A stretch of DNA of 28,885 nt, taken from contig JAKSYS010000740.1 of assembly GCA_022925895.1 (NCBI GenBank), forward strand, positions 1-28,885, written 5' to 3'. A program made the position numbers and the translations under genes. Source of the DNA: Fragilaria crotonensis. Its lineage: Eukaryota; Bacillariophyta; Fragilariophyceae; Fragilariales; Fragilariaceae. Under the pieces are notes generated by a model. That model saw only the letters and a program-made list of their open reading frames with translations. It was not told the origin of the DNA and made no database searches. This document shows, piece by piece, positions 143 through 28,590 of the stretch (position 1 is the first letter of the stretch; every line of letters begins with the position of its first letter).

Positions 143-838
143 TTACCGCACGGGTTCAAAATAAGACCGTATCGATCTCACCCTGCTATCGCTTTCTCCT
201 TTGCTCGTTTTGCGCTTTCTTTGAAAATTGGTACATTCACCGTTAGCCAATTCCGAGTTACCCATAGTGGCTTATGCATATGTTCGTGTTCTTCACGAAG
301 TAATAGTTCGCGGACTCTCGGTTCATATTGAGACGCTTGCCATATACTTCTCGCAGCTGCGCTGAAATCTCTCGCCGCATGGCACGGTCTGCTGCGTCGC
401 TCCCGTGTAACTCTTCGTTCCTTATCTTCCATAGCTTTTGCCATTCCTTCCATATCAAACAAATCAGTTTAGTTTGCCATCGGTGACCGCTGCGCCTGTC
501 CTGTGTGCCTCGTTGGGACCGCAACCTTGCATAATGGTCGTCTTGAATCCGGCTCCATTCCGCACTGAACCTCCTGTTGATCGTTTGGCGCCAACCGATC
601 GAATTTTGCTGGGTGATCAACGCTCGAACATCAGTGGAAAAGAAAATTGGCGATGCTTGAAACTCGACTTCCTCATTTGTGACCATCCAGTCTCTTATTG
701 TTTCGTTCCATAAATTGCGAAGTAATGGATTTGTTTCTTCTTTAGCGTGGAACTCATCAATGATGTGATGAAAACTGTCCCTCCAATTCTGACGACTTGC
801 GGCCGTACACTTAAGGATATGGTCCCTGGTTTCCGGCA
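143..838 (-). pseudogene. Element A ORF2, C-terminal domain
   Basis: Continuation of A's ORF2 after the zinc finger, split between the frame at 857-258 and the frame at 462-178. It contains the block QQNSIGW, RFSAEW and DDHY, then W-x-x-W with RNEELHGSD. Matching blocks occur in B (near 8720-8520) and C (near 18830-18620), and a weaker one in D (28140-28360). The frame ending at 178 stops after KAIAG. Shifting one base gives a tail that ends SIRSYFEPVR with a stop at 143-145, matching the C-termini of B and C, so the 178 stop is most likely a frameshift artefact. The domain's function is unknown; its position after the zinc finger suggests nucleic-acid or host-factor binding. Confidence 0.7.
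158..181 (-). other. PIP-box-like C-terminal motif, element A
   Basis: Read in the frame that ends at 143-145, these codons give VRSIRSYF. This matches the PCNA-interacting pattern at positions 4, 7 and 8 (I, Y, F), but position 1 is V rather than Q. The same register occurs in B, C and D. Confidence 0.5.
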
Positions 839-1830
839 TGTTCCACAACCTGGGCACATTCGTGTTCTGCTTTCTTGCTTGTTTAAGCGTTCAAGAGTGG
901 GTAAGCACTCGTGTACCAGTTTTGTGATGTGTATCCGTTTCTTTATCATCTGTTTCATCGCCTTTCCATGCGCCCGCCAGTTAATCGTAGCCATAGTTGC
1001 TTCGGTGTACCCATACTTGGCTTGAATGTATTCTCGCAATGGTCCTATTGTCGCCCGGTGTCGGATATCTTGCGCATACTTCGAAGTTTTTGTTCCCTCT
1101 GGATAAACAAGAAATGCTCCTGTATTCGGTGTCATGAGTGCATATGGATGTGCGCGTCCATATTGATCTTGATACCTCCCCGCTAAATCATCAGCGTCGA
1201 CGTTTAACTGCGCCCGTAGAGTAAGTCTATTGTACGCCTTCTTCTTGTCCTGGTGGCCTTTAACATAGACCAGTTTGACTCCTGGCATATGTGTAAGAGC
1301 ATATCGGATTTCAACGAGTAAATCCCATTCAGGTATCAAAGGATCAAGGGGTGAGATTCCGAAGTGCAGTCGGGGATGCCGCAGGGCCCCGTCCCGATCT
1401 CGTCCGAATATTGTGTCAAGCATGCTTTGACTATCTGTCCCGATTGTACCGTCCCATGGTTCAATCATGTTTGTATATTCAGACAGCCTCAACAAAAATC
1501 GCAGAATTGACAGCATGCCACTGCATTCTGCTCGGTAGGAGTCCACGTATCCCCTGATGGTCCCATTCCCGTCGCTACTCGTTCGCCTTGGGATGTGCTA
1601 ATCATCCATCCGAATGATCCGTCGGTGCCATACTTCTCGGAACCATCGCTCCCGGCTTCAAATCCTTGGTGTAACTCTAAACATGCTGTATACGGATCCA
1701 CAAATAAGTCTGTATGCCGCAGGAGATCGACCTCCCATGCATCAAGCTGTTGAACGTAGTCGTCAAACGTAGCCACTGGTAACGGTCGCGGTTGGATACC
1801 CGAGACAGCTTGTTGATTATTTCCCATCGA
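807..1830 (-). pseudogene. Element A ORF2, RNase H, AHGKA domain and zinc finger
   Basis: RNase H type 1, which would degrade the RNA strand of the RNA:cDNA hybrid. Catalytic signatures in order are GSDGS near 1645 (first Asp), YRAE near 1530 (Glu), GTDSQS near 1430 (Asp) and GHQD followed by LNVDAD near 1200 (fourth acidic region). A 1-nt deletion plus a lost codon, judged against C, shifts frame near 1545 between the first and second motifs. Downstream lies INWRAHGKA, KLVHECLPT, then a CX2CX8HX3C zinc finger at 807-856 that is itself cut by a frameshift near 837: the CPGC half is in one frame and the DHILKC half in another. The equivalent fingers in B and C are intact, which confirms the reading. 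Confidence 0.82.
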
Positions 1831-2436
1831 TGCATTCTTCCTGCCTGCTGAATTTCCACGGGTACTGCCATATTCGGAATCTCCCTCTTCGATATTGAGA
1901 TTGCTTTCTCTATACATTCGTTGAGTGTCTTCAAGCTTCCGACATTTGACATATTCCCTCCCATTCGTCGCACGTATAATGTCGATCTGTAGACGTAAGC
2001 AGGGTAAGATATCCGACTTTCTGTGGTAGTTAGTAACCAAGGCCCCAAGGGTTGGACCAATGTGCCGTCGGGATAGCTCCATAGCGCATTTGCTTTTTTC
2101 CATAATTTCCATGATACTGCAGATGGTAACTCTTGATGCACCTTCATCCACCTCGGACGATTGCTGAACAGTGATTCTTGACCCGTGAGTTTTGCTTGAT
2201 CTAACTGCGTTCCCTCTGTCGTCGCCAAATCCGATATTGTCAGCGCTCCCAGGTATAATCGACAATAATTGATTCGCCTGATTTCATTATCGCTGAATCG
2301 ACCTGATGCTAATATCCGATCCATAATGAATTCATCGTGACGTCGCTCTAGTGGTGCAACACCCGTGTAGTCCAACTGTATTCCTGCTTTGATAAAGGCC
2401 AAATATCCACGCAGGGAACTTAACCATTTGGATTCC
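1800..2436 (-). pseudogene. Element A ORF2, RT thumb/connection
   Basis: Frame 2402-1677 continues the RT protein towards RNase H. Its start is joined to the RT frame by a frameshift near 2436: KWLSSLRGYLAFI matches KWLKSLRTFLASI in B. The block INYCRLYLGALTISDL matches LNYCRLYLKATTVSDL in B and IYLQVNTLADMTDVS in D. WKLWKKANALWSYPDG matches WRLWKKANGLWSHPDG in B. A further frame change near 1800 leads into RNase H. It probably acts as thumb and spacer between the RT and RNase H active sites; no enzymatic motif is visible. Confidence 0.7.
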
Positions 2437-4290
2437 AGATGCGGAGATTATCGTACACATTTTCCATCAACGGTAGTGAGGTCCCAACACAGTATTGTGC
2501 CCAAGCTACGGCACATCGGAGTAGCCTTCCTGCTGTTGTCTTGTTGCGCCAATGCCTCAAGAATAATTGAACTTGTCCGATACCTTGTTGGTCATACAAT
2601 CTCCTGAAATTAGCGCCGCCGTATTCCAATGGACCGTATATGATAGCTCGTTTTGTGTTCCGATTATATCCACATTTCGCAATGATGATTGACATCGCTT
2701 TCCGTTGAATATTGTTTAATTGAGCTGCCGTGAAGTGTGAATTTGCGAGGGGATAACCGATACTTGGTAAGTAGCACGCGTAATAGAACGTCCATGCTTC
2801 TTCTGGGGTCAATGAACATTGATACAAAAATTCGACCGAATTATCGCTCTTGGATTTCAGTTGTCGATATTGTTCGCGCTGTGTGCCCGCCGGATCTTTG
2901 TAGTGACCCAAGGTTTTGTGTGATGCATATGGAGACAAGTACGTGAGTTCTTGATCGATTCCTGATGCGGGATCTTTTACGCGGACTCCTTTGAACTGAG
3001 ACGAATCCGTCATTAGGATAGGGGCTCCTGTTACCGTGAATTGCCAAGCCATAACGTGATACGAGCACTTCGATGGTTCTAATGCTCCTCCAGAAATCCC
3101 AAGCAGTTCCGCCCAGAGTTGTGCGTTATTTTCCAACTGGGTGATAATCTGATGGCGTGCATTTTCCGTTTCCTCATGATCGAACAGGTTGGTTTGCCCG
3201 TTTGAGTCATCGACGAAGCCGACCATACCGAGTTCCACTGTTTCTGATGTACTTGGATTTTTGTAAGTTGCCTTTGCTGCTTTCTGGTCATAGCAATCGT
3301 AAAGTAGACTCGACAAGAAACACCATATAGCAGGAGAATTACCACTTCCTTGTCCTGTTCCGTATATTGGGTGAGTATTGCTATGCGTGTAGCTCTCTTC
3401 TGCTAATCCCATTTCGGTTCTGATGTGATATCTTGCGTGCTTTAGCGTCCGCGCGTTTGACGCTGTCACTGAAGGGGGCACTCCAAATGTCTGACTTGCA
3501 ACCATTGCCAAGTTTGGAACAATCCGGTCGTAGCACGAGGCTGCATCGTAATTCGTCTGCACCAATGTTTTTCTTGTTAAGCGGGAAATCTCAAACTGAA
3601 GTTCTTCGATGAATACTGGGTCTATTGCATTCCGATGAGGTCGCGATCCATATTGGCCATCGTTTAGAAGTGATAGACTCTCTGCGTGATACAATGCTGA
3701 TCGCCATTTTAATCCCATCGCTAGATTGTAATCTGCTTCATACAGATGGATAACTCTGGTACGATGGATCCGAATGTTCCCTGGTTCTTTGAACAGTATA
3801 CTATTTGCCACTTTCTGCCACCGGCGATAGGAGTATCCTCGAGTCAGGGCGTAGTTTATCAAGTGCAAATGAAGTTGGAACAAATCGGACTGCATTTTGT
3901 CAAGTTCTTCCCGATTGGCTTTGTGTTCTTCATCTTCATCTTCTGGAATGTTGGAATATTGATGCTTTGCTATCAATGCTTTGTAATGCCCGAGATGTAA
4001 TCCTGATGGTGAGGTCGCAGTGGATTCTCGCCATACTTGTAGTTTACTCTTCATCTCGCCCTCGGTTATGGAGGCCATGTGTTCCATTGTCGCTATTTCT
4101 GCTGATTGTTTCAAATGATCTAACAACAGTCGAAGATTGCTTTGCATTTCCGGATCGTGTTGGTAAGTTCCTGTTAGTAGTTGTTTCGCTGCCGAACGCT
4201 GGCCTGTGAATCCAAGGTCTGTACTCAACGGTGGAACAGTGAACGGAGTCCTTGCGCTTGTCCGAAATGCTTCTGATTCCGTGTCCGAAG
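2420..4290 (-). pseudogene. Element A ORF2, reverse transcriptase domain
   Basis: The longest open stretch is 4228-2420 (602 aa counted from an internal Met). It shows TATSPSGLHLGHYKAL (residues 71-86), RVIHLYEADYN (158-168), motif A NYDAASCYD (catalytic Asp 228), motif B GTGQGSGNSPAIW (290-302), motif C GFVDD (Asp 340 and 341) and SGGALEPSK. These are the elements of a non-LTR reverse transcriptase that primes cDNA synthesis from nicked target DNA. The true frame extends upstream of the Met to about 4290, where it joins the linker frame through a frameshift. All catalytic Asp residues are present, so the core is intact although the full protein is not. Confidence 0.9.
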
Positions 4291-6308: not shown

Positions 6309-8107
6309 ACACATTCTTTGGTCTTCATTTTCGACTCTCGATTCTGACGTTTTCTCGGTGTTGCTTTGTTATCCCATCTTTTAGCTCCTTCGATGTGATT
6401 GCTTTGTACCTTTTTTATATCATCGTCATCTGGCTCGTCGATTTGTGTTGCTCTTCTTTTGGATGCATTAGACGACATCTGTGCCATCATCATTTGACTA
6501 AACATTGTTGTCATGTCATGAGTAAAGACTCTGAACTGTTCTTGCAAGGCCTGCGATACCTGACTTTGTACTTTTTCTTCGATAGTTGCTTGGTCTTGTG
6601 CTTGCTTGCCTTCAATCATGGCTAACCTCTCTCGTAACGCAGCAACCTCGTCTCTACTTTTAGCGAGTTCCTGTTGTAGGAGTTTGTGTTGTTCCGACTC
6701 GACTGTGGAAGTCTGCTCGCTTGATGAGTAAGTTTGTGATCCACGGACTTTATCTGCCCACGATGCTTTACCGACGTATGATGAATTAGCTTGGCTGCCT
6801 CCTAGTGTAGATTCGTCTGTAACGCTCTGTTGTTCCTTGCGATATATGAATGTAGGTGGACTTTCGTTTGAGATATTCGAGCCGATTGACATTGCAGTAT
6901 TAATACTGATTGTCAAATAAGAATGATCGCCTTGCGAGATGCCATCGGATTCAATCGGCGATACTGCTGGAGGTCCAGGGTATCGATCTGCCGAAACTTT
7001 AGCATCTGGTTCGACGTGTTCTTCGTACCACTTTGGAATCGCCTCTTTCAATACTTCCCGTACCTGATGATAGTTCTTTTGATGGACTAATACTTTGTAT
7101 TTTCCATCCTCATTCACGGATCGACACGGTAATAGCGAAATGACACCCGATGTAGCGATGATGCGTTCGGAAAGGTAGTGCATTGCATCTTGTCCAATGT
7201 GATTCAACACGATAACGTAGTTTGTTGCTAACGTTCGAGTTTGTGCTTTGATGAAACGCTCGAATGCATCCGGGTGACGAGATCTCATTTGAAAGGGTAC
7301 AAAGGTTCCGCTTTCTTTGTATGCTTCTTTCAATTGTTTGCTAAGCTCGTCTCGATCTGCTCTCAAAGTTTCCACTGCGTACGCTTTGGTTCTGACGATG
7401 CGTCCTTTCGCTGTTTTGATCTTTGGGGAACAATACACCAATCTAAATTTGGGGATCTTCATCCGCGGTAACGCCTGACGTAGGGTATTGGTGAACTTGG
7501 TTGTCGCTTGGTCAATGTCATAGAACTGTGGGTCGAGACCATAGATAAAACCGAGTTGTGTCGTTTCCCAGTCCGTTTCGCTCCAACGATGTTCGTTCAC
7601 GTAGAAATTATGTTCTTTCATCAACTTGAAGATTGAATTGGTTGCCTTTAGTTCGCTCAAGGAAACCACCGAACGGATTCGATGAACGATATAAGTCGAA
7701 ACGCTTTTGTGGTCCTGACTGTTGTTGGTGTACGTAGTATTCTTGTGCTGGCGAGTGTGACGATCGAAATGGAGATGAAACTGCTGGACATGCATCTCGG
7801 GATCAATACGAAGTGGCTCGATCTTACTGACTTGGCGATTTCGATTATCGAAGAACTGAATCTTATCGCTACCGAAGGCCATAATAGCTTCATGCATCCA
7901 ATTTGCATGAAGGATTGCTGGATGAATGTTGTCGTTGTTTTGAGATGGAACAAAACGAAATCTAAGCGTTATTTCGACGCTAGACTTGACAGTTGACTTT
8001 GAACTTTCTCCACGGTTAGGTGTAACTACGGTATCGTCGTCATCGCATGGAAGATCGCTTGTTGCTTGAAGGCGTCCGGTGGCATGATGAACGGAAGGGT
8101 CCATCAT
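6305..8107 (-). CDS. Element A ORF1 protein
   Basis: Open frame of 600 aa with an MM start and an in-frame TGA 13 codons upstream of it. The central domain (about residues 45-370) aligns loosely with ORF1 of B and D. Its best match is near its end, where KYKVLVHQKNYHQVREVLKE parallels AYLLVPSQYFQKVQQEW in B. Residues 468-541 look like a coiled coil rich in Gln, Glu and Leu. The tail is acidic then basic (DEPDDDDIKK, then PRKRQNRESKMK). KASWADKVRG lies before the coil. No CCHC zinc knuckle or recognisable RRM is seen. By position it should be the RNA-binding, particle-forming ORF1p, but this is inference. It lacks the N-terminal block of B and D. It is the only unbroken complete-looking ORF in this element. 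Confidence 0.82.
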   Translation of the reverse strand: MMDPSVHHATGRLQATSDLPCDDDDTVVTPNRGESSKSTVKSSVEITLRFRFVPSQNNDNIHPAILHANWMHEAIMAFGSDKIQFFDNRNRQVSKIEPLRIDPEMHVQQFHLHFDRHTRQHKNTTYTNNSQDHKSVSTYIVHRIRSVVSLSELKATNSIFKLMKEHNFYVNEHRWSETDWETTQLGFIYGLDPQFYDIDQATTKFTNTLRQALPRMKIPKFRLVYCSPKIKTAKGRIVRTKAYAVETLRADRDELSKQLKEAYKESGTFVPFQMRSRHPDAFERFIKAQTRTLATNYVIVLNHIGQDAMHYLSERIIATSGVISLLPCRSVNEDGKYKVLVHQKNYHQVREVLKEAIPKWYEEHVEPDAKVSADRYPGPPAVSPIESDGISQGDHSYLTISINTAMSIGSNISNESPPTFIYRKEQQSVTDESTLGGSQANSSYVGKASWADKVRGSQTYSSSEQTSTVESEQHKLLQQELAKSRDEVAALRERLAMIEGKQAQDQATIEEKVQSQVSQALQEQFRVFTHDMTTMFSQMMMAQMSSNASKRRATQIDEPDDDDIKKVQSNHIEGAKRWDNKATPRKRQNRESKMKTKECV

Positions 8108-8152
8108 CGTCGTTGAAGCGCAGGTACCAAGACCTACTCAAGATTCACGTAG

Positions 8153-8249
8153 AAAAACCTAGTGGGCTTACTATTTTCTCCTAAGTGAAAATTCTACCAG
8201 TACCGTATACCAGTAGAGGCTAACCCCGAATCCCGCTTGGTGTTGATCA
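8153..8249 (-). other. 3' UTR and short T tail of element B
   Basis: Noncoding stretch from the ORF2 stop to the AGG(T)5 end. It contains the direct repeat TACCAGTA twice (plus strand, near 8195-8215), with no strong hairpin. Element A begins immediately beyond the T tail, so A and B are arranged head to tail. Confidence 0.55.
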
Positions 8250-9240
8250 TTACTTCTTCGGCGCAAAATAGTGTTGGAGAGACTTCACACCCTGGATTGC
8301 CCTAGCTTTTGCCCGTTTGATACTTTGCTTGGCCAATGGGCCATACACTGCTATCCAGTTTTTGTTGTATGTCACTGATTTTTCGAAATGCTCGGTGATG
8401 TCCCGACACAGGAGTTTCTGCACGCTCGGTTCCATTTGATTGCGAACGTCATAAATGTCCACTAACATTCTTTCGACTTCGCGACGCTCCGCCTGTGCTT
8501 TAGCTTGGGCATCCGCGCCGTGTAACGATTTGTTGCGAACCTCCCAGAGGAGAAACCATTGATTCCACACCGTGCTAATAATGGCGGTCTGCCATCTTAG
8601 CCCGGTTTGCCGTTTGGTATCCGTCAAATGCGCTTGCCGTGCATAATATTCATCCTGCAACGAGCTCCATTCGCTACTAAACCGTCCCAGAAACAGATGT
8701 TCCCACCCAATAGCATTTTGTTGAAACACCAGACGTCGAATCGCCGATGTTGCCGTGGTCGGAGCTTGGAGTTGGTACGGAGTCCCGTCGTCGCTGGAAT
8801 ACTGGAGCCATTCGCAAAGGGCCTGAAGTAATAAAGCTTTAAGGCTAGGCATCGTACGAAGATCAGTGCACTGCTTCTCGACTGTCTGGATCATGGCCGT
8901 TCGCCACTTTGTATGAGGGGCTGAAGGACACCGGAGGATATGCTGCCAATATTCCGGGTCTCGTTGGCAACTTGGGCATCGATTCCGACGAGGATCATTG
9001 CGATGGATTCTAGCATTCGTCGGAAGAAGACCATGAACCAATTTCACTAAATGTGTCCGTTTGTTGAGATGCCGATGCATGGCTTTTCCATGTGCATTCC
9101 AATTTATAACAGACATCGTTTGTGCCGTCCACGCGTACCGCTCGCGCATATGTTCTTCTAACGCCGGTGCTGTTGCTTGATAACGAATGGCCGCATCATA
9201 ATGTGCCGTGATGGTACCTGTAGGGAACTCCGTGGACTCC
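8250..9240 (-). CDS. Element B ORF2, AHGKA domain, zinc finger and C-terminal domain
   Basis: Open frame 9323-8250 (357 aa), of which the first 30 residues are out of register with the upstream RNase H frame. It is the cleanest copy of this region in the window. It shows INWNAHGKAMH (residues 73-83), KLVHGLLPT (94-102) and a zinc finger with C116, C119, H128 and C132 (CX2CX8HX3C). Then come QQNAIGW, RFSSEW, QDEYYAR, W-x-x-W and VRNKSLHGAD. The C-terminus is QGVKSLQHYFAPKK. A zinc finger after RNase H is common in non-LTR elements and probably binds target DNA or element RNA. The last domain is not one I can name; a role beyond cofactor recruitment would be a guess. Confidence 0.82.
8271..8288 (-). 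other. PIP-box-like C-terminal motif, element B
   Basis: Codons within the last 15 residues of ORF2 give SLQHYF, with L, Y and F at PIP positions 4, 7 and 8 and Q two residues before position 1. Four residues (APKK) follow to the stop. Confidence 0.5.
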
Positions 9241-10020
9241 TGCCCATTCGCTGAGTAGCACCTCGGGTTGAAAGGACCCAAAGTCGCGCTGGTATCTCGA
9301 CGCTTGGCCGTCTGCATCGACATTTAGCTGGGCTAATAATGGAAGGCGAGAATATGGAGTATCGCGGTCTTGGTGGCCTTTCACATGTTGAAGGTGGATC
9401 TCTGGCATCTCCGTAAGTAGAATTTGAATGCCTCGGATAACATCCCATTCAGGGATGAGCGGATCTAGGGGAACGGTACAAACTGACCTCCTGACATCGT
9501 GACTCAGGCCCGTTGGATGTCCTGACGCATCGCGTGATTGTTTCTGAAGCACCGTATCAATGAGACTTTGACTGTCGGTCGCCAAGGTTCCGAACCACTT
9601 GCCATGTTTTCCTGTAAATTCTGCGAGTCGTCTCAAGAAACATAGAAGAGATAAAAGGCCATAACTTTCCGATCGATACGCATGGGGAGAAGCGCTACGG
9701 GCAGGTCCCATACCGTATGCGCACCGTTCACCAATATCTGTACTCATTGTCCATCCAAAGGAACCCTGAATTTGATGCCAATCGGATCCGTCGCTAACCC
9801 CACGGACTCCATGTTCGAGAGCGACCGCGACTGAAAACGGATCGGCTTCCAGTTCCACGTGCTGCAGCAATTCCATTTCCCAATTAGGAAGCGAGGCAAT
9901 GAATTGAGCAAAAGTACCCGCGCATGGTGGAGTATTGACTTCCAAGATATAACTGTGCTGCACGATGGTCCATAAACCTGGGGAGGATTGTAACGCGAAA
10001 ATGGGGACTGCTAGAGATGG
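9240..10020 (-). pseudogene. Element B ORF2, RNase H domain
   Basis: Frame 10218-9196, of which about the first 65 codons are out of register with the RT frame. RNase H type 1 motifs are GVSDGSDW (Asp 143), YRSE (Glu), LATDSQS (Asp) and HVKGHQD followed by LNVDAD. All four acidic positions are kept in one continuous frame, unlike A and C. It would remove RNA from the first cDNA strand. It is joined by frameshifts near 10020 to the RT frame and near 9240 to the C-terminal frame. The upstream block TFAQFIASLPNWEMELLQH corresponds to TFDDYVQQLDAWEVDLLRH in A. Confidence 0.85.
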
Positions 10021-11960
10021 TAATGATTCCCAGGCACACGAAAGGGCAATTCTTGAAAAGCTCGATCCGAGACCGGTACGCACTTGACATAGTGATCCTG
10101 GATGCGTACCCAAAGTCGTCCTGATAACCAATAAGCTGGATGACGTTGATTCATCTGATGAAGAGGGAGAACCCAATCGCCAAGAGACTGACGAAGTTTT
10201 CCGTCGGGATGACTCCAAAGACCATTAGCTTTTTTCCATAGCCTCCAAGTATTCGCCGACGGACTTTCTTGATGAATAACGGTCCCGTGTGTGAAACTGC
10301 TGAGAAGGGAATGAGTGCCTGATAGCTTACTATTGTCCAGCGAGCGACCGTCAATACTAGTCAAATCCGAAACCGTCGTCGCTTTCAGATACAAGCGACA
10401 ATAGTTCAGCTTACATATCTCTGCGGGCGTAAACTTGCCGGAATCGTGAATTGCATCCATAATACAAAAGTCATGTAATCGTTGGAGCTTTGGAAGATAT
10501 GGATTATCAAGACGCAATTTTGCGTTGATACTTGCGAGAAAAGTTCGGAGAGATTTAAGCCATTTCGATTCCAATTGGGGCAAAGAAGTGTGAACATTTT
10601 CCAGAAAGGGGTATGATACTCCCACCTGGGATTGAAACCACGATACAGCGATTCGGAGGAGTTTCCCTGCTATCGAGTTTGTACGCCATTGACGAACGAA
10701 CATCACGACCTGGGCCACCCCTTGTTGTACAATCAACGAGCGAAAACTGGCACCGCCGAGAGCGAGCGGGCCATACAAAATCGCCTTTTTTGTATTGCGA
10801 TTGAAACCACACCTCGGGATTATGATGGACATGGCTTTTCGTTGTACTTGGTCGAGGCATCGTGGCGACAATGATGAGTTCGACAGAGGATAGCTCACCG
10901 CTGGCAAATAGCATGCGAAGTAAAACGTCCATGCTTCCAACCGAGATAATGGACACTCCCACAAAAAAGCTGTGATAGAATCACTTTTTTTCTTAAGTTG
11001 CCGGTATTGCTCTCGTTGCGTCCCCGCTGGGTCTTTATAGTGTCCCAAGGTCTTGTGAGCGGCGAATGCAGGGAGGACACTCAACTGCTGTACCCCATCG
11101 TCGTTATACTCCCGAACTGTGATTGTTGCCTCTTCCGCCGAATGCTTTGGAACAAGAACGGGGGCACCCTGCATTGAGAATTGCCACTGTAAGATATGAT
11201 TCGAACATTTCGATAACTCCAATGCTCCTCCACTAGCTGTCAAGAGATTCGTCCAACATTGGGCATTGGATTGCGTCTGAGACACGATTTGCTGGACCGT
11301 ACGAGAGGAGCCGTCACTCTCGAAGGCATTCGTTTGACCGTTACAATCATCCACAAAGCCGATCAACCCTAGGTTGACTCGGACGTCCCCTTGGGTATCC
11401 CAGTACGTTGCCAAATCCGCTTGGGTATCGTAGCAATCGAATAGCGTACTGGAGAGGAAACACCAAATCGCCGGAGAATTGGCACTTCCTTGACCAGTGC
11501 CATAAATAGGAAAGTCGCTTTCATGGTGATATCCAATAGGAGAAATACCGAGTTCTGTGCGCACATGAAATTCCGCTTGTTCAAGCGTAGATGCATTACT
11601 TTCGGTCACAGTGGCCGGAACCCCGAACTTCTGACTGACTGTCATTCCGAGATTCGGTATGATACGATCATAGCAAGCTGTTGCATCATAATTTGTGAGG
11701 ACAACCGGTTTCCGAGTCGCCCGAGATCTCAAGTTGGAGCTCTTCAATGAATACTGGTTCGGTTGCATTCCGGAACGGTCTGGAGCCAAATTGGCCATCG
11801 TTCAATAAACGGAAGTCTTCTGCTTGATGCATGGCCGCGCGCCATTTTATACCGAGAAACAAGTTGAAGTCCGCTTCATATATATGAATGACCCTGGTAC
11901 GATGCAAGCGCACATTGTCAGGGTCCTTGAATAATATAGTATTAACCACTTTTTCCATCG
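10011..11960 (-). pseudogene. Element B ORF2, reverse transcriptase and thumb
   Basis: Three frames. The RT starts at the end of the 14216 frame (TTTSPSGMHLGHYKAL), shifts near 11950 into KVVNTILFKDPDNVR and RVIHIYEADFN, and shifts near 11727 into frame 11798-10011. That frame holds motif A NYDATACYD (Asp 38), motif B GTGQGSANSPAIW and motif C GFVDD (Asp 150 and 151, near 11350), then SGGALELSK. The thumb/connection follows without a break: KWLKSLRTFLASI, LNYCRLYLKATTVSDL and WRLWKKANGLWSHPDG. The catalytic core is intact. This is the copying enzyme of the element; the lesions upstream of motif A would truncate it. Confidence 0.88.
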
Positions 11961-14216
11961 CTGGAATGAATAACCTCGCTCCAGTGAATAATTCATCAGG
12001 GTTAATCGCAAACGACGTAAAGCTTGCTGTTTGGAATTCAACTCATCTCGTCGGGCCTTGAATTCCGGTGTCAACTCGTCATCTGCAGCGTCGGATGAAT
12101 AATTATGTCTTGCAATGAGGGCTTTATAGTGTCCTAAATGCATACCCGATGGAGACGTTGTCGTAGATTCCGACCAAATCTTCAGTTTATCGCAGAAATC
12201 GTCGTCGCTTATTGTCGGACGCGTTTTATCCACGAAGGTGTGGTGGGCATATTGAAGATGCTGTAAGAGCAATTTTACATTCTCATCATAACCCGAGCTA
12301 TCGAATGTACCAAGCAAGATCTGTTGTTGAGTGACGCTCGTACCAGTGTAACCCAAAAGAGTAGACAAAGGCGGAATCGTGAAAGGTGTACCATGAGCCT
12401 GCCCAAAATGCTTTCTGTTCCTTTCCTGAAGGTGCCGAACAATCTCACTAGGGATATCGACTTGTGTCCACTGCGTGCAAGTTTTGGGATCATCGCCATC
12501 GTGTAATGGAATCTCTAACCGAACCACTCCTCCACGGTTAGTCTTTCCGCGGACATGCCGAAGCTTTTCGGTGACTGCCTTGATATCCTCAGCTTTCTTT
12601 AATCTCCGCAATCTCTGAGCTGTCACTTTATCCACTTTCAAGATGGATTTCTCTAACTCTTCTATCTTTTGTCGGCGTTCCATATTCCGAGTGACGTAGC
12701 TGTCCTTGACAATCCGACAAACCTCTTTATTCGCCCAACGAAGTAAACGCGAACAATGACTTGTATTCCGTGGAATTTCGTCAGTAGGCAAGTCTTCTCG
12801 GTACGCCTGAATTACACTGGAGCAATCAAATGTAGTTCGGAAGGCCGATAAACACTTTCGAAGGTAATGAACTCGTCGTCTCGCCCGAGCTAATTCCATG
12901 GACCACGCCGGTTCGCCAAACTGAGGGAGAGACTTTTCAGCGGCTAAACTGGCCGCTAACACGTCGCGGTCCAGTCGTTCCGCATATTGATGCCTGTTCC
13001 CTTCATGCGTTAACCGTTCGCATCGTTCGAAAGCATTATGTTTCAAAAGTAGCTCATACATTGCATCAATGTATACAGTGACTTGATGAGGATTGTTAGC
13101 CTTGAGCATGCGCCTCGTTGGAGTTGCCAAGTCTTGAGTCGGGCTTCCGAAGAGTATGTCAGTATGAAAGTCGATGAAGAATCCTCGATGATCAGAAGAC
13201 AATCGGGCGTTAAAGGCGTCATAGCCCATCGAAATCATTGCGTCTTTGAATCGCATACTGCCTAAAGCGTAGTCTAAACACTTGGAACCGCGAGCATACG
13301 TTGCTGGGACTTTGGATGAATGCCGACAAGTACTTAAGTTCACCAGGTTCAATTCTCCTGCCACGAAACTCAGACCATCGGGATCAGAACCGAACTCTTC
13401 ATTAAAATCGCCTACTAACAGGATATCGGATCCTGCGCGTTGATAGTACCTTAAAGAGGCCAACAGATCTCGACGAAAAGCAGACCTTGGATTCTGCACC
13501 GCGTCGTTGGATTGCAGCAACAGACTCCTATGTTGACCAGCCACGGTTAGATTTCCTTCTTGCGCCCCGCGTTTATCAACCGGTTGATATGCCGAGACAA
13601 TGACCAATTTGATCCCCGACTGACCGACAAACTCTTGATCACCCATCGGCCCCACCGGTCTTGTGTTTGGTGTATGATTCGCCCGGAGAAACTTCCAATC
13701 GTTAGAAGGAACGTCCCCGGGTTTATATGGCGTCATAAATGGAATAGGAGTTGTCCCTGCGATGAACTTGGTTCGGTTCCAGTATTGTTTAACGGTATCG
13801 TACAAAATGCTACGAATACTCATTTGCGTTACATCAAGATTATGCTCTTGACCGCAAAAAACATCCGCTTGAACTTCTTGAATAACAGCACACACATCGT
13901 TAAGTTGTCCTCCACGCCTATCGATTGAAAGTCCATTTACATTTTGAACATACACTCGAGTATGATTCGGTGCTTTGGGAGTTAAAAGATCTCCCCATGG
14001 ATTATTCTCACAAAGATTACTCCGAGTAAGGAAACAAGGTCGTCGCCCACGAGGGCCTGATACGTCCAACTCAGTCGGTGCTGTGGATCTGCTGAAAAGA
14101 TTTTTCCATTGTGCCTGTGCGCGCTCTAACGATGGATTGACATTTGAAGGAGGTGGGTCAACGATGTCGATTCCCAAACCTTCTCCCTGCATCTCGTGTT
14201 CCGCTGGAGGAATCAT
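11847..14216 (-). CDS. Element B ORF2 N-terminus: EEP endonuclease and linker
   Basis: Open frame of 789 aa starting at the ATG that overlaps the ancestral ORF1 stop. Residues 1-80 are a variable leader. The APE-like endonuclease spans about 86-350: NVNGL with Asn 92, GQEH with Glu 124, VSAYQ, VGDFNE with Asp 270 and Asn 272, LDY with Asp 315 and SDHRG with Asp 342 and His 343. A helical basic linker follows (about 365-600; AERLDRDVLAASLAAEK), then RT block TTTSPSGMHLGHYKAL at 685-700. The last 45 residues are out of frame. Residues about 168-190 (near 13718-13645) do not match A, yet another frame there gives GGTFLLTIG and QDRWGRW as in A. So the ORF hides two compensating indels that damage the endonuclease. 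Confidence 0.85.
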   Translation of the reverse strand: MIPPAEHEMQGEGLGIDIVDPPPSNVNPSLERAQAQWKNLFSRSTAPTELDVSGPRGRRPCFLTRSNLCENNPWGDLLTPKAPNHTRVYVQNVNGLSIDRRGGQLNDVCAVIQEVQADVFCGQEHNLDVTQMSIRSILYDTVKQYWNRTKFIAGTTPIPFMTPYKPGDVPSNDWKFLRANHTPNTRPVGPMGDQEFVGQSGIKLVIVSAYQPVDKRGAQEGNLTVAGQHRSLLLQSNDAVQNPRSAFRRDLLASLRYYQRAGSDILLVGDFNEEFGSDPDGLSFVAGELNLVNLSTCRHSSKVPATYARGSKCLDYALGSMRFKDAMISMGYDAFNARLSSDHRGFFIDFHTDILFGSPTQDLATPTRRMLKANNPHQVTVYIDAMYELLLKHNAFERCERLTHEGNRHQYAERLDRDVLAASLAAEKSLPQFGEPAWSMELARARRRVHYLRKCLSAFRTTFDCSSVIQAYREDLPTDEIPRNTSHCSRLLRWANKEVCRIVKDSYVTRNMERRQKIEELEKSILKVDKVTAQRLRRLKKAEDIKAVTEKLRHVRGKTNRGGVVRLEIPLHDGDDPKTCTQWTQVDIPSEIVRHLQERNRKHFGQAHGTPFTIPPLSTLLGYTGTSVTQQQILLGTFDSSGYDENVKLLLQHLQYAHHTFVDKTRPTISDDDFCDKLKIWSESTTTSPSGMHLGHYKALIARHNYSSDAADDELTPEFKARRDELNSKQQALRRLRLTLMNYSLERGYSFQRWKKWLILYYSRTLTMCACIVPGSFIYMKRTSTCFSV

Positions 14217-17330: not shown

Positions 17331-17458
17331 GGTGCTTGGGGTACGCGACAACTTCCTATTTGGTGTACGCAATTACGGACTGCGGACAGACTGTACTTGC
17401 GAAACTCTAAACTAGAAAATTGTGTATAAACATGTAATGAAGAGTTTAGTATAACCAA

Positions 17459-17605: not shown

Positions 17606-17631
17606 ATGTTCAAATCACGATTGAACACTAA

Positions 17632-17800: not shown

Positions 17801-17875
17801 TTGCAAATGTCGAGCGCTGTCTGGAGCTGGATGCGGAGGTCGGTGGGCGAGCTGGGTGCAATAGAACCCTTGTTT

Positions 17876-18236: not shown

Positions 18237-18249
18237 GGTTTTTGATATC

Positions 18250-18259
18250 AAAAAAAAAA
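18250..18259 (-). repeat. Oligo-T tail of element C (10 A on the plus strand)
   Basis: The coding strand ends GAGG(T)10 and is followed by GATATCAAAAACC of the flanking DNA. This is the same arrangement as in element A. Confidence 0.8.
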
Positions 18260-18355
18260 CCTCAAAATCTACTTTACGTGCTGCCGCGACATCCAACGCC
18301 GAAGTAATAGCATGAGACGGTGTGACTCTTGTGGTCCATGGCGGTATTACATGCC
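18260..18355 (-). other. 3' UTR of element C
   Basis: Noncoding stretch between the ORF2 stop (18356-18358) and the tail. The 12-mer at 18276-18287 is identical to 46-57 in A and sits at the same spacing from the tail. The rest has diverged. Confidence 0.6.
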
Positions 18356-19012
18356 TTATGGTACCGGGTGGAAATACGACCGTATCGATCGGACGCCCTG
18401 AATAGATTTTTCTTTGACTCGACGTATACTGTCCTTGAATAATTGGCCATGCATCGAAATCCAGTTCCGTGTAACCCAGTTCGGCGTCTGCAGATGAGTT
18501 CGAACGTCAGTATGTAACATGCGTTGGATGGACGGCTCCATGTGTTGCCGAGTATCGTATATTTCCCTCAGTTGGCTTGCGACGGCAGCTCGCTCTGCTG
18601 CTGTTTCTCTGTCATGTTGTGTCCGTGGACGTCACCATTCCGCTGCTTCCACACCACTTCCCATTGCGTCCAGATTGTTACGATAAGCCGTTGTTGCCAC
18701 TGAATCCCTGTGCGGCGAAATTTCGTGTGGTTGCGGTGATTTTGGTAGTAGTCTTCTTGCATGCGAGCCCATTCAACACTAAAACGACCATTAAATAGTT
18801 GTCTCCACCCGATGAGATTTTGCTGCCGAATAAGTTTGCCAACATTTGTGTGAAACAGTACTGGGTTGATTTCATCGGGTTGCTGGGGTCCAGCCACTGT
18901 GCAAAGGCCTTGTTTAGCACGTGTCGCAGGATGGGACTTGTGTGCATGGTGCTATGGAATGTGTTGAGACTTTGCAGGGGACAGTCGCCATGTCTCCCGG
19001 CTTGAATGTGGA
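18356..19012 (-). pseudogene. Element C ORF2, C-terminal domain
   Basis: Three frames (19040-18678, 18897-18568, 18541-18356) carry one domain in sequence. The first gives LRHVLNKAFAQWL. The second gives IRQQNLIGWRQLFNGRFSVEW, QEDYY, W-x-x-W and KQRNGDVHG. The third gives WVTRNWISMHGQLFKDSIRR and the C-terminal SIRSYFHPVP. Each part aligns in order with B's continuous frame, so the breaks are indels near 18890 and 18560. The domain is the same unnamed post-zinc-finger domain as in A and B. Confidence 0.75.
18371..18394 (-). other. PIP-box-like C-terminal motif, element C
   Basis: Codons give VRSIRSYF, four residues before the ORF2 stop, with I, Y and F in the PIP register. It is nearly the same as in A. 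Confidence 0.5.
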
Positions 19013-19944: not shown

Positions 19945-20037
19945 ACACTTTTTTTCGTTCGTAGTTTTCACATCACCCTTCCGTCCGTCGCCCGTCTCTC
20001 CGTAGAACTGATACGAATCACCTCGTGTGAATCCACC
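19945..20037 (+). promoter_or_regulatory. 5' leader of element D
   Basis: A 93-bp untranslated leader that begins ACACTTTTTTTCG directly after the duplication and ends CACCATG, the same start context as ORF1 of B. A full-length LINE needs an internal promoter here; no specific motif is recognised. Confidence 0.5.
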
Positions 20038-22888: not shown

Positions 22889-24345
22889 GTCACCACACTC
22901 AAGCACCCACACCGGAGCCATTAGTTACGGCTCCTTTTTCCACCCACACCACGGGTGTTTTGCACACACTTCCCACATCACCAATTCTTCTCTTACCATC
23001 ACACAGGCCAGGGCGCAAACAATGGTCAAACCCATTAGATCCTCATCCAGACAAAAGTTACGGTGACAGCATCAGGAGAAACCGCAGCACAGTCTTCGAG
23101 TTTTTTCCAAAACGTGAAAGGCTTCTCTCACTCCGACGGTTTTGATGATTTCAAGTATTACTTCTCTAGTCTTCAGGCATTCGGTGTTGACATTTCTGGA
23201 TCCGCTGAAACGAACACAGCATGGCAACATGTTCATCTACAACAAGACGTCCGAAAGATCATTCACAAACGATTTCGACAAAGTAAAATAATTTTTGGGT
23301 CGGCTACCTGAAGTTGATCGTTGCCCCCTTCCGAAGTTTATCAATCTGGAGGAACAATGACACTAGTACAGGGTCCAATTACATCTAGTGTATACGGCGA
23401 CACTATCAAGGACGAAACAGGTCTAGGACGATGGACAGGCATAACACTCCGAGGACACGGCGACTACCGACTGAGCATCATTACGGCTTATCGGACATGC
23501 GGCGGAAATATCAAAACTTCATCTCTTGGCAGCGTCTTCAGCAGAGAATTTACCTACTTTCGATCACTCGGTATTCAAACCCCAAACCCTCGACGATTGT
23601 TCTTTCATCACTTGAGTTCCGTCATTCAAGACCTACAGGAGAATGGATGCCACATCCTTCTGATGCTTGACGCAAATTCAGATTTGTCTACGGACCATGG
23701 CTTTTCTGAATTCGCGGCGCAATGTGACCTACACGATCTCCACTACCGTGCTACACCACCGTCAACATATATCGGGTCATCACATCGACGCATTGATTAT
23801 ATATTTGGCTGCAGCGGCCTGTCAAATCTCTGCTCACGATCCGGCTCTCTTTCTTATATCGAAGGACCTCAGTCTGATCATCGCGGTCTTTTTGTGGACC
23901 TAACGATTCCTTCCTTGATTCCCGCTTTGCGCATGCAACCAATGTCACCCTCTTCGCATCGCGCCCTACATACCGGGAATCCCGAACTAGTTGATGCGTA
24001 TCTAAAATCCGTTGGCGAGTATTATCAAAAGCACCGAATGAAGGAACGAATTGACGAACTTTTCCTGAAACACAAAGCCATGGATAAACAAGAAGTACTT
24101 CGTCTGTTAATTGGATGGGATAATGACCAGGGTAGAGCAATGTCCTCGGCGGAAGATAAATTGAGCAAACCACCAAAGAAATGCGTCTGGTCGCCAACGT
24201 TAAGGAACACTGCAATGATCCGTAAGTATTGGAAACTTCGACTGCGTGAGGCCAACTTCCAGGAATGTTACCTTCCCACCTTCCTACGATGGCAAACACA
24301 TTCAAAAGCACGATCCGAGTTTTACATTTCCACACTTGCATACAT
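22885..24345 (+). pseudogene. Element D ORF2 N-terminus and EEP endonuclease
   Basis: ORF2 starts MSHHTQAPTPEPLV at the overlap. The frame changes near 23080 into SSFFQNVKGF, the first endonuclease block (Asn kept; the residue before Gly is Lys, not Asn as in A and B). SAETNTAWQ follows and keeps the catalytic Glu. Frame 23321-24379 then gives YQSGGTMTLV, ITAYR, LMLDANSDL (Asp and Asn), RIDYIFG (Asp) and SDHRGLFVDL (Asp-His). The following AMSSAEDKL and WSPTLRN begin the helical linker seen in A and B. The EEP is recognisable throughout but broken near 23080 and 23315. It would nick target DNA; the target used by D itself is visible at 19930. Confidence 0.8.
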
Positions 24346-24908
24346 CCTTGTCTCTCCAGGAGATAAGACAACAATTTAATCAGGCGACAAAGCGGTTTCG
24401 TAAATCACAGATGGATTCCACTTCGCTTCGTTTGAAAACGTATGAAGAATTAATGCAGCATTATCTGGACGACAACAACTCGGCGACTCAAAAAGAATCC
24501 ACACGAAAAGCCAAAGTTATCTTACGAACACTACAAACAGAGACATGTCGAAAAACATTCACCGATCTTCGATTGGCACTCAAACCCAACACAAGTACTC
24601 AATCTGGCTTGTCTCACATCATGATTCCTCATCCACAAACCGACGCTCCCGAGCTCTCTCACAATTCATACACAATCCTTCGCGACACGCCTCCTGAAGA
24701 GCTAAGATGGGACACAATAATCGACAGAGCGGACATCGAAAATCAATTGTTGACCTATAACAAAGAAGCGTTTCGGGCAGCGGCAGCATCGCCATGCGGA
24801 CACGGGATTATATATGATGCTATCACCTTTACAAGTTTGTCTCCTCGGCAAAACAGCTCCTTGCTGGCATTGTACCACCGGAATGGCACGGTGACGATCA
24901 AGTTTTGA
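24246..24908 (+). pseudogene. Element D ORF2, linker to RT
   Basis: Frame 24246-24908 (220 aa). It becomes the true ORF2 frame at about 24345 (LSLQEIRQQFNQATKRF) and leaves it near 24870. It is polar and basic with a helical character. GLSHIMIPHP corresponds to GVVRLEIPLH in B, just before the RT. NKEAFRAAAASPCGHG is specific to D and ends near the RT N-terminus. No catalytic motif is seen; it is likely a structural or RNA-binding link between endonuclease and RT. Confidence 0.65.
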
Positions 24909-26800
24909 AGGAATTCTTAGCGTCCTTTGCCATACCAGCTTCTGTTCAGAAATCCGAGCCCATCAGTACAATCATTTCGGAAGAAGACGTTACGCGTGGC
25001 TTCAAGGGCTGGCGAGAGACTACTACAACGTCACCATCCGGTCGACATTTGGGTCACTACAAAGCCCTCATCACCGATAGTATATTTTTGCAATGTTTGA
25101 CGAAATTCTTGAATATTGTTCTGTTTCACGGGATATCAATTCCGCGATGGTGTCATGCAACAAACATTCTACTCGAAAAGGATCCGGGTCGTCCGCATAT
25201 CAATCGGTTGCGAATCATTCATCTGTTCGAGGCGGATTTTAATTTCCTGTTGAAGATATTATGGGGATCGAGATTGGTGCATCGAGCAGTCGACTTCGAC
25301 TTACTGCATGATGGACAGTTCGGATCGGTTCCCAGAAAAACCACGTTGGATCCCATTATGTTAACGCAATTAACAACAGATTTGTCGCGGATCCTAAAAA
25401 TGAATATGGCGCGCTTCGACAACGACGCATCCGCATGTTATGATCGAATTATAGTGGCTTTTGGTATGTTGGCCGCTCGCCGTTGCGGCATGCCAGAAAA
25501 TGCAGTAAGTACACATGCTTCCGCACTACAGTTCATGCGGTACTCAGTGAAGACAATATATGGCATATCTAGGGACACATATTCGGGTAGTGACTTGGCA
25601 CCTCTCTTTGGAACCGGGCAAGGCAGCGGAGCCTCTCCCTCAGTATGGTTATCGCTGGTGGTCCTTCTTCTAAACACCTTGGAGAAGTTAATTCCCGACC
25701 GCATCAGTTTTGAATCTCCGACGAGGCAAATGCAACATAATCGGCTTGTTGACGCCTACGTCGACGACACATCGTTGGGTCTGACCGATCCGTTTCAGAT
25801 TATACGATGGAAGAAATGATTGATCGTCTGCAAGCTATGGCTCAGACATGGGAACACATTTTATCGTTATCGGGTGGAGCACTCAATTTTAAAAATGCAG
25901 CTGGTATGCGGTATATTGGGAATGGGATAAAGGAAGACCACGTATTCGTCCAGTCTCACCTCAGGATCCCTCCATTACACTACAAAATTCCGTGGGAAAT
26001 CCCTCCCCACAGGCAATTCCGCGAATGTCACTTGAAGCATCGTCACGTGTTCTTGGAGTTCATCTTTCTCCGTCTGGAGATTTCTCTGAATCTATAAAAG
26101 TCTATAAGCGGAAAGCCGACGAGTTTGCCGCTAGGCTTCACTCTCCTCGAATACGCGCTCCTGAGGCCCGCATCTTTCATCGATCCATATATGTGCCGAC
26201 AATGCGATATGGTCTGGCAGCTTTGTCCGCATCGGAAGAAACATTGGCTGGAGTACAATCTCGCGTGCTTGCATCACTTCTTCAAAAAATGAATGTCAGT
26301 AAATCCCTGCCCACTGCAATCCGTCACGGTCCTCAGGAATTTGGCGGATTAGCCCTCTATGATTTACGCACCGAAATTGGAATCGAAAACATCAAATTTT
26401 TACGAGATGCAGTGTTTGCAAATTCATCGGCTGGCAGACTGATTTTGATAAATCTCCAATACCTACAATTAGAAGCAGGCATCGGCGAAGGACTACTTCA
26501 ACACCCTACGATCCCGGTTCCTTATCTGACTCCATCGTGGCTTCTCTCCGTCAGGCAATTTTTGTCTAAGCACAACATGACAATCACATTGACAGATGAA
26601 CCCACAATCACCAAAGCTAACTCGTCTGACCAATTTATAATGCAGCATTCGCATTTGCAAAGGTACAGTATTACCCAACAAAGGACATTAACCTGGTTCG
26701 TATCTATCTGCAGGTGAACACACTTGCTGACATGACTGACGTCTCTCAACCGAATCATCTCCCTTTGCTACCTTGATGGGAATCGACCGCCGGGCTGGGC
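24870..26800 (+). pseudogene. Element D ORF2, reverse transcriptase and thumb
   Basis: Frame 24905-25819 holds TTTSPSGRHLGHYKAL, RIIHLFEADFN, motif A FDNDASACYD (Asp 174), motif B GTGQGSGASPSVW and motif C YVDD (Asp 287 and 288). A frameshift near 25800 leads to LSLSGGALNF, and another near 26030 to frame 25992-26717. That frame carries the thumb (SRVLGVHLSPSGDF, VPTMRYGLAAL, RHGPQEFGGLALYDL). Near 26705 it shifts again to IYLQVNTLADMTDVS. RWPRQAAPSSSQKRLWKRF near 26811 is the counterpart of the WKLWKKAN block in A. The catalytic residues are all present. Confidence 0.87.
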
Positions 26801-26812
26801 AGAAACAATGAG

Positions 26813-27790
26813 ATGGCCCCGTCAAGCTGCTCCATCTTCTTCCCAGAAACGACTATGGAAACGATTTTAACATCCTCCTTTCTAAGATACATCCCGTATT
26901 GGAAACAGAACCCCATTCAACCGACAAACGATTCCGTTCATTCCGTATTCTGCGAATCTTCTCCACCTCCTCACAATCCTGCCACTGCAACGAACATGCC
27001 CTTGATGGATTATCTTAAAACATTACCCCGTACTCAGCGACGGATGGTGTCCAACGTTGAACAAGTGGCGACGGATGTCCAAGTATGGCGAGCTTTTCGT
27101 TCACGAGAAAGGTTACACATTGCCTCTGATGGCGGATTACACGGCAATCTTGGCACATTTGGATGGGTATTGGCGACGTCTAAAAACATTTTATTCAAAT
27201 GCGGGGGTCCGGTTGATGGGCCTTTCGATACCGCCAGTTCCACGAGAAGCGAACTATGCGGATTCGCCTCCTCGTTACTTCTCATTGCAGCAGCTTCCAG
27301 AAACTGGGGTCTGAGACATAGCTGTTCTTTTCGATGGCTCACCGACAGTCGTTCCGCAATCTCGAAAGTTTATAAAACAAATCGACGTGGGTGCCTCGCC
27401 AGTCGACAAACATTTGATTCAGATCTTCTCTCAATGATTCGGTCGCTTCTGATTGAAATTCGACGCATCGTGGTCTTTCGTTGGGTGCGAGGACATCAAG
27501 ACTCCATCAAGTCATATGAACATCTCTCCAGAGAAGCCAGACTTAACATTGATGCGGATTATCTTGCCACAAGATATCGTCTTCGAGGCAAGTTGAAGTC
27601 CACGAGTACCGTCGATCATCATCCGGCGCAGCGGATATCTATATCGATCATGGGAAAACGGCTGACAGCACAATATGACGAGTGCATTCGGTTTCACATA
27701 AATGGTTACCATTTGAAACAATATATGCAGGATCGGAAGCAATGGAACGACAATACGTGGAACATGATCGACATGGGAGCTTCAGTCACC
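26813..27790 (+). pseudogene. Element D ORF2, RNase H domain
   Basis: Frame 26813-27832 (339 aa from an internal Met). The lead block MPLMDYLKTLP corresponds to TFDDYVQQLD in A. RNase H type 1 residues are IASDGG (Asp 106), TRSELCG (Glu 147), LTDSRS (Asp 178) and WVRGHQD followed by LNIDAD (acidic residues near 249). All are in one frame. The reading shifts near 27785 into the zinc-finger frame; the last residues of this ORF are out of register. It degrades RNA in the hybrid during second-strand synthesis. Confidence 0.86.
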
Positions 27791-28590
27791 ATTTCAAACG
27801 CCTTACTCCGTCGCAGCAGACATCACACATGAAGTTCGTTCATGACCAACTTCCTCTCGGAAAACGTCGCTTTCAAGTTTCGATGAGCAAGGACACGATC
27901 TTGAAAACATGCCCGTGTTGCGGCAAAGCTGACGAGGACTCACACCACCTGGTACGTTGCCACTCAATTCCTTCATGAATTCGGGTTTACAAACGCTTCG
28001 ACGGTCTCCAAACGAAGGGCCACATCCTCTGCGTCGCATCCTAGTTGGAGGCATTACACATTGGATTCATAACGGCACGTCCGATTATCGAGTTGATCTG
28101 GAAGGGTATCCGAACACATGAAAGACACGATCACTCGTATACTTCTCGAACAAGAGTTAATAGGATGGGACAACGCCCTGAAAGGTTTTTGAGTAAGTCA
28201 TGGATGGATCTTGCATCGCTGAGGTATGACGATTCCAGCAGCGACCGTGTTGAAGGCGCGAATCGCCTTCGACGCAGCATTCGAGCACTTTATGTTTACA
28301 CCACCGGGGTTTGGAGAGCACGGAATTCGGCCCTCCACGAATCTGATGATGATCTCAACCGACGTCTTCGTTCAAATATGCATGATACCATTCTTCAATT
28401 ACATCGGAATCCGGACCAGATCTGCTTTGACGACCGTTATTTATGCGAAATGCCATTGGAGACACTGCTGAAAAGTTCTGCTGCCACTCAACGGCGATGG
28501 ATAAAGAAGATGCGCGAATCTCGAGCCATGTACACCCGGCTCGGTGAACAACAAACATTGATCACATCTTTCTTCTCACGGGGGAATTAA
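27682..28590 (+). pseudogene. Element D ORF2, zinc finger and C-terminal domain
   Basis: Frame 27682-27978 supplies KFVHDQLPLGKRRF (the KLVH block) and a zinc finger at 27910-27960 with C77, C80, H89 and C93 (CX2CX8HX3C). A frameshift near 27970-28045 leads to 28045-28590 (181 aa) with WRARNSALHESD, the RN-x-x-LH block shared with A, B and C. The C-terminus is EQQTLITSFFSRGN. The AHGKA motif of the other three elements is replaced here by divergent sequence, so D's domain is a distant version. Confidence 0.8.
28552..28575 (+). other. Canonical PIP-box-like motif at the ORF2 C-terminus, element D
   Basis: Codons give QTLITSFF, a full match to Q-x-x-[ILM]-x-x-[FY]-[FY], four residues before the stop. 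This is the best of the four copies. Confidence 0.65.

Follow-up and report, generated by a model that had tools for sequence, protein, structure and literature searches.

A putative PCNA-docking peptide at the C-terminal end of ORF2 in LINE-type elements of the diatom Fragilaria crotonensis

Positions 1 to 28,885 of contig JAKSYS010000740.1 of the diatom Fragilaria crotonensis (assembly GCA_022925895.1), hereafter called the window, contain four elements of the long interspersed nuclear element (LINE) type, three of which lie on the minus strand (A, B, and C) and one on the plus strand (D). In each of them, the second open reading frame (ORF2) ends in a short tail resembling a PCNA-interacting protein (PIP) box, which raises the question of whether the encoded protein carries a plug for the sliding clamp of its host or whether these letters have another origin. 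After our analysis, the tail is likely a real PIP box, the Q-less group of element B being the weaker case, and with a probability of roughly three in four ORF2 of these LINEs would end in a PIP box that docks on host PCNA and tethers the ribonucleoprotein (RNP) to clamp-loaded DNA. Taken separately, binding to PCNA is predicted as very probable for the D tail and, somewhat less firmly, as probable for the B tail. This is supported by the position of the motif, its conservation within the genome, selection at the protein level, likeness to PCNA-bound peptides, second motifs in some copies, and the partner surface of the host PCNA.

The original prediction placed a PIP-like motif at the ORF2 end of all four elements, 4-5 residues before the stop codon, and the motif was confirmed in 4/4 elements, at a distance of exactly four residues in each. 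Element D carries the canonical PIP box QTLITSFF (28552-28575, plus strand), a complete match to Q-x-x-[ILM]-x-x-[FY][FY] as proposed, followed by SRGN and a stop at 28588-28590, and is the only one in the window to possess the Q. The Q-less motif VRSIRSYF was found on the minus strand in element A (158-181, followed by EPVR and a stop at 143-145) and element C (18371-18394, followed by HPVP and a stop at 18356-18358). The motif VKSLQHYF of element B was also correctly recognised, but its exact location is 8265-8288 on the minus strand (followed by APKK and a stop at 8250-8252), six bases lower than the place near 8271-8294 given before. As assumed earlier, a frameshift separates the upstream domain of element A (...KESAKRAKEKAIAG) from its motif, the two lying in different frames, while near-copies of this element (L099 and L114; L numbers denote related sequences fetched from the genome) have both in one frame. 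The strong divergence claimed for the surrounding domain was likewise borne out by the D and B domains, which aligned at 20% identity. Given the amino acid composition of four long ORF2 frames, chance alone would produce the strict form with Q at a rate of 3.0e-5 to 4.5e-5 per position, compared to 6.4e-4 to 8.7e-4 for the form without Q; in 7,453 ORF2 residues, with the last 120 of each frame excluded, one and nine occurrences were observed, respectively. These figures carry less weight than the selection and profile tests described below, since the members of a repeat family do not represent independent trials.

All genome counts refer to one genome of 62.1 Mb in 881 contigs. At least 150 matches were scored for relatives of the D C-terminal domain (337 candidates) and at least 150 for relatives of the last 170 residues of B (496 candidates), and 60 ends of each lineage were fetched. 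For the first D ends, a query containing the tail was used, and rows without internal stops were taken in rank order, about one per distinct bit score. The strict motif Q-x-x-[ILM]-x-x-[FY][FY] was present in 53 of the 60 D ends, in 38 of these at 3-5 residues from the stop, and its form without Q in 37 of the 60 B ends, in 31 of these at 3-4 residues from the stop. Of the seven D ends without the strict motif, three were truncated or shifted (L011-L013), L008 had an altered last motif residue, L046 contained an additional residue, L054 carried V at position 4, and L057 resembled none of the others; by eye, the 23 B ends without it were divided into 11 ending in YW, seven in YL, FL, or WL, and five truncated or shifted ones.

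Since the first D query included the tail, a tail-blind search was added, in which the last 30 residues were removed from the query. It recovered the same lineage and, after skipping near-identical duplicates, yielded 40 new ends (39 without a stop inside the match), of which 25 showed the strict motif, one a loose form, and 14 no motif in frame. In six of these 14 (L129, L132, L140, L152, L154, and L155), the strict motif was complete but out of frame; two contained a stop codon within it (L127 and L162), and in six it was substituted, partial, or lost (L126, L128, L130, L131, L135, and L160). This check covers the D lineage, the B ends having been chosen with a tail-containing query. Open frames of at least 1,900 amino acids were detected in 10 places among the D and B matches listed, and the ends of seven of these were fetched (L032/L166, L039, L085/L167, L106, L142, L157/L168, and L161/L169); the PIP-like motif was terminal in all seven, with two F/Y residues in six and YW in one (L106). 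Beyond this genome, comparison of the B alignment with the viral_contigs and genome_contigs sets resulted in no confirmed relatives.

Removal of copies with more than 85% identity left 38 ends for D and 39 for B, with letters at the motif in 37 of the former. In these D ends, Q was found at position 1 in 37/37, I, L, or M at position 4 in 36/37 (V in one), T at position 5 in 34/37, and F or Y at position 7 in 37/37 and at position 8 in 36/37. The B ends carried V (24), M (8), or T (7) at position 1, I or L at position 4 and Y, F, or W at position 7 in 39/39 each, and F (27), W (6), L (5), or D (1) at position 8. The conservation of positions 4, 7, and 8, a point on which the original prediction depended, was therefore not refuted in this genome, all three being kept in D and position 8 being looser in B. 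In the non-redundant D ends, the linker from a conserved RRRW to the motif was mostly variable, and the residues right after the motif were among the least conserved of the domain. In a hand-picked D alignment of 18 rows, 29-65% identical to element D of the window, the eight-residue motif held three of the 10 invariant columns. Net-positive flanks were displayed by 34 of 44 distinct D ends (five were negative) and by 44 of 45 distinct B ends.

To obtain the D tail profile, element D was combined with 17 hand-picked ends out of 100 fetched D ends and compared with 177,635 PDB sequences; the B tail profile contained element B and 19 hand-picked ends out of 60. Decayed ends and B ends in YL, FL, or WL were omitted, two YW ends were kept, and one B row (the L089 end) carried one residue past its stop, so that the profiles are biased towards the clean pattern. 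The D profile matched five sequences, the best being the DNMT1 peptide (6k3a, E-value 0.0094), accompanied by the p21 peptide in three forms (4rjf, 1axc, and 5e0u, E-values of 0.018 to 0.13), while the B profile matched three, the third being the PIP peptide of RNase H2B (3p87, E-value 1.1). PCNA is also present in the entries 6k3a, 1axc, and 5e0u and presumably likewise in 4rjf and 3p87. As the profiles span merely 24-25 positions, weak E-values are to be expected, and the identity of the hits matters more. The reversed D and B profiles retrieved five sequences each, none of them a PCNA partner.

In particular, the D tails share an RQT-x-[IM]-T-x-[FH]-[FY] core with the PIP boxes of DNMT1 and p21, and the B tails share with those of RNase H2A and H2B the Q-less pattern [VML]-[RK]-x-I-x-x-[YF]-F as well as a location in the C-terminal region. 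DNMT1 and p21 are host proteins and RNase H2A and H2B host enzymes, however, with domains unrelated to those of the elements, and both likenesses probably arose by convergence. On the side of the host, one PCNA_C match was identified in the genome; the C-terminal half of this protein resembled the PCNA of 1axc, which we take to be human, with an E-value of 2.5e-52, and kept the connector-loop LGIP and the LAPK end. A host protein that we read as FEN1-like carries QARMDSFF and one that we read as XPG-like carries QTRLDTFM, both putative PIP boxes.

Further hints were obtained from two D-type groups with longer tails and a second PIP-like motif. In the copy L161/L169/L170 and its near-twin L171, QQTVTQYF occupies the old site and QMSILRYF follows 43 residues on, three from the stop; the related copy L172 (a relative of L169) shows KRTMTQYF at the old site and a second motif that is longer by one residue. 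In L058 and L157/L168, the first site is degenerate (QQRITQFM and QRSITQYI, respectively), having lost the second aromatic residue, and an intact motif is present 35 (QQRMTAYF) or 38 residues on (QQRMTSFY). Such a change of place without loss of the motif is a common trait of docking peptides and would hardly be expected of a fold element.

Selection was assessed as the ratio of non-synonymous to synonymous change (dN/dS) with simple Nei-Gojobori counts, pooled over greedy non-overlapping pairs (17 D and 19 B) of the rows aligned over the motif (57/61 per group; a filter for an aromatic residue at position 7 dropped none). The motif revealed a dN/dS of 0.081 (D) and 0.090 (B), compared to 0.155 and 0.118 for the domain, 0.267 and 0.170 for the stretch upstream of the motif, and 0.581 and 0.696 for the three codons downstream. 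In bootstraps over pairs, the non-synonymous change (pN) of the motif reached that of the codons after it in 0/2000 cases in both D and B; for D, it reached that of the domain in 6/2000 and that of the linker in 4/2000, and for B that of the stretch before in 46/2000. A PIP box maintained by selection is well supported in the case of D and less firmly in that of B.

Several observations weigh against a PIP box. In frame, 14 of the 40 tail-blind D ends lack the motif, 12 of the 39 non-redundant B ends have no F or Y at position 8, and pN of the B motif is not clearly under that of its domain (contrary in 231/2000 bootstraps). In the PDB searches, the fifth match of the D profile is an unrelated enzyme (E-value 1.4), and a nanobody (two chains, E-value 0.066) ranks above RNase H2B for the B profile. 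A phmmer search of the PDB with the single D tail gave no match, and a profile of the whole domain retrieved no PCNA partner, its sole match being FAM166C (E-value 0.16). Moreover, in those D-type ends that were parsed, Q always follows 21 residues after RRRW begins, which is equally expected of a folded unit, and the AlphaFold model of the D domain, made with three sequences, is too poor (mean pLDDT of 44) to judge the flexibility of the tail.

The last two points also bear on a first alternative, namely that the C-terminal domain closes with the tail as a structural element, i.e., a short helix or strand packed on it, whose fold signature happens to look like a PIP box. Though the constant spacing from RRRW and the helix drawn over the tail in the poor model would fit, most of the linker that separates RRRW from the motif varies, the B and D linkers differ while their ends are alike, and the pattern of fixed positions retrieves PIP peptides. 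In addition, the second motif lies 35-43 residues on in the extended tails, in L058 and L157/L168 behind a degenerate first one. Altogether, we regard a fold signature as improbable; the terminal position and the variable neighbours of the motif are compatible with a flexible tail.

PIP-like motifs are able to bind several partners. Accordingly, the tail might dock on another PIP-reading protein, e.g., the 9-1-1 clamp or a Rev1- or MLH1-like platform, which would be likeliest for the B group with its missing Q and with W or L at position 8 in 11/39 ends. On the other hand, D keeps the Q that belongs in the Q-pocket of PCNA without exception (37/37), and 34% of 77 confirmed PCNA motifs are reported to lack it (PMC6881253), so that its absence from B bars only the canonical PIP form; the same source describes that basic flanks increase affinity. 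Furthermore, the Q-less LRKITSYF of RNase H2A was seen docked on PCNA by cryo-EM (PMC11731006). A partner other than PCNA is about as doubtful as the fold signature.

Far less probable is conservation at the RNA or DNA level, such as a 3'-end recognition signal for the reverse transcriptase overlapping the end of ORF2. The motif is indeed near the 3' untranslated region, where the D-type sequence TAACCC[GT]ATAATT was found in 29 of 100 fetched ends, but synonymous change (pS) is free within the motif (0.385 in D and 0.467 in B) while the protein is fixed, most clearly in the codons of positions 7-8, with a pS of 0.79 (D) and 0.85 (B) against a pN of 0.011 and 0.039. As the synonymous sites vary freely while the residues stay, selection holds the protein and not the RNA, and a nucleic acid signal is largely refuted. 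The possibility that a few young elements passed on a random ending to their copies can be dismissed as next to negligible, for although many copies are close relatives with identical bit scores, 38 D and 39 B ends are left below 85% identity and the motif dN/dS of about 0.08-0.09 refutes it.

With respect to the organization of the elements carrying the putative PIP box, the parts of ORF2 could be assigned with differing certainty. In element B, the AP-type endonuclease part and the start of the reverse transcriptase occupy 11847-14216 on the minus strand (Exo_endo_phos, E-value 1.8e-7, 31.6 bits at a cut-off of 24.5). The same domain was detected in L167 (28.0 bits) and reached just 14.3 bits, under the cut-off, in L166; it was absent from the Pfam results for L168 and L169, both of which retained SDHR. 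The reverse transcriptase parts of B (10011-11798, minus strand; RVT_1, E-value 8e-5, 22.9 bits) and A (2420-4228, minus strand; E-value 1.7e-5, 25.1 bits) were both under the cut-off of 29.6. FVDD is present in L167-L169 and not visible in L166, and a comparison of the L167 reverse transcriptase part with the PDB gave no match. An RNase H-like part was recognised by eye in B (9196-10218, minus strand) from SDGS, SES, TDSQS, and NVDAD, which we take to be RNase H catalytic-like motifs, and in D (26813-27832, plus strand) by resemblance to other elements. The Pfam family RNase_H matched the related frame L166 under its cut-off (E-value 2.6e-4, 21.6 bits, cut-off 25.8) and was absent from the Pfam results for L167-L169 and for the window frames of B and D. 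Thus, the window elements appear to be LINEs with an endonuclease in ORF2, their reverse transcriptase and RNase H parts being indicated by matches below the Pfam cut-offs.

The C-terminal frame of B (8250-9323, minus strand) was read as a zinc-finger-like motif (CPSCQRDPEYWQHILRC), the C-terminal domain, and the tail, with a weak zf-RVT match (E-value 0.04, 15 bits, under the cut-off of 27.5); in D, the C-terminal domain and tail span 28045-28590 (plus strand) and have relatives elsewhere in the genome. A Pfam analysis of 18 C-terminal domains revealed no family shared by more than one member. A zinc-finger-like motif C-x2-C-x(n)-H-x(n)-C was also observed 3' of the RNase H position, at residues of about 1695-1774, in all four frames L166-L169. 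Apart from that, an internal x-x-x-M-x-x-Y-Y lies 44 residues past the endonuclease SDH in L166, L168, and L169, a position reminiscent of the PIP box found inside the human L1 protein. The stretch has a Q in L168 only (QKAMRSYY), i.e., in one of the four long frames; element D of the window shows V-x-x-Y-Y there (23321-24379), and the Y-Y pair is missing in L167 and in elements A and B of the window.

Some copies are arranged head to tail. In the window, the B stop is about 140 bases from the start of the first open reading frame (ORF1) of A on the same strand (8107-8250), and the plus strand of contig G000:C493 (13152-35661) harbors D-type matches at 13152, 18637, 26854, and 35365. Two more copies (G000:C310:29377-29886 and G000:C528:28863-29372) equal element B over 170 residues, and this identity suggests a recent movement of the element. 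The 3' ends are apparently not poly(A) but T-rich simple repeats on the sense strand (window 28590-28722 and ends L001-L165), with TTTTG, TTA, or TATATA repeats after the shared TAACCC[GT]ATAATT in the D type; of 19 B-type ends inspected, 13 displayed a simple run of T. Contig G000:C880 (8934-91370) revealed 14 RVT_1 matches, perhaps belonging to group II introns of an organelle genome.

If the tail functions as a PIP box, it would dock in the hydrophobic groove of host PCNA and would thereby tether the ORF2 RNP to clamp-loaded DNA, either at the replication fork or immediately behind it or at sites of repair; after the start of first-strand synthesis, it could hold ORF2 together with the completing enzymes of the host (Pol delta, FEN1, and ligase) on one ring. 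As to the step of retrotransposition that needs the tail, we infer that a tether to replicating or repaired DNA or a hand-over for the second strand is the likelier use, the two not being separable. Since the elements appear to encode their own RNase H, the tail is unlikely to serve mainly for the recruitment of host RNase H2 via PCNA, as has been proposed for human L1.

As such, the docking of mobile elements on a clamp is already known from pogo, Tn7, IS elements, and human L1. For the ORF2 protein (ORF2p) of L1, a PIP box at residues 407-415 between endonuclease and reverse transcriptase has been described, and PCNA binding is reported to be needed for retrotransposition (PMC10830420, PMC7617806). 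In a 2025 study, ORF2p was predicted to bind PCNA via a PUB motif in the wrist instead of the internal PIP box, with supportive pull-downs of mutants (PMC7617806). The comparison with L1 thus stands on less firm ground than assumed in the original prediction. Like L1, the elements of this study have a LINE ORF2 protein that would engage PCNA, here predicted from sequence. They differ in that L1 has its site within the protein, with a contested canonical PIP box (PMC7617806), and lacks an RNase H (PMC6068448), whereas their own motif is terminal, canonical in D, and combined with an apparent RNase H. According to the latter paper, LINEs without RNase H were shown to depend on the RNase H2 of the host, for which PCNA was suggested as the connection.

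Among DNA elements, the pogo transposase and its relatives Tigger and Lemi1 also have a PIP box in a mobile-element protein, pogo being a PCNA interactor, but belong to a DNA transposon, and the relevance of the PIP box is called unclear (PMC5371812). The bacterial Tn7 and IS transposases use the beta sliding clamp (PMC5371812, PMC4549789), thus a bacterial clamp, with another motif and as DNA elements. The R2 element, a non-LTR element of the LINE type like those described here, is reportedly without a PIP box or a known PCNA role (PMC10830420). A search of open-licence papers brought up no LINE for which a C-terminal PIP box had been described.

The use of PCNA by LINEs is under debate, the long-cited internal PIP box of L1 having been challenged in favor of another site (PMC7617806). 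Here, clearly more than a hundred related copies within one genome share a small, separable terminal motif, in elements that apparently have their own RNase H. Only tentatively, with a little less than even confidence, would we go so far as to propose a diverse RNase H-bearing LINE lineage that depends on a terminal clamp plug, kept through divergence in a canonical and an RNase H2-like form and regained in extended tails. If this is true, docking on PCNA would be a general requirement for the insertion of LINEs at replicating DNA, independent of the recruitment of host RNase H2, and the plug would have been reached separately in L1 and in the present elements. Should the motif bind PCNA, it could serve to separate the targeting of replicating DNA from the completion of the second strand.

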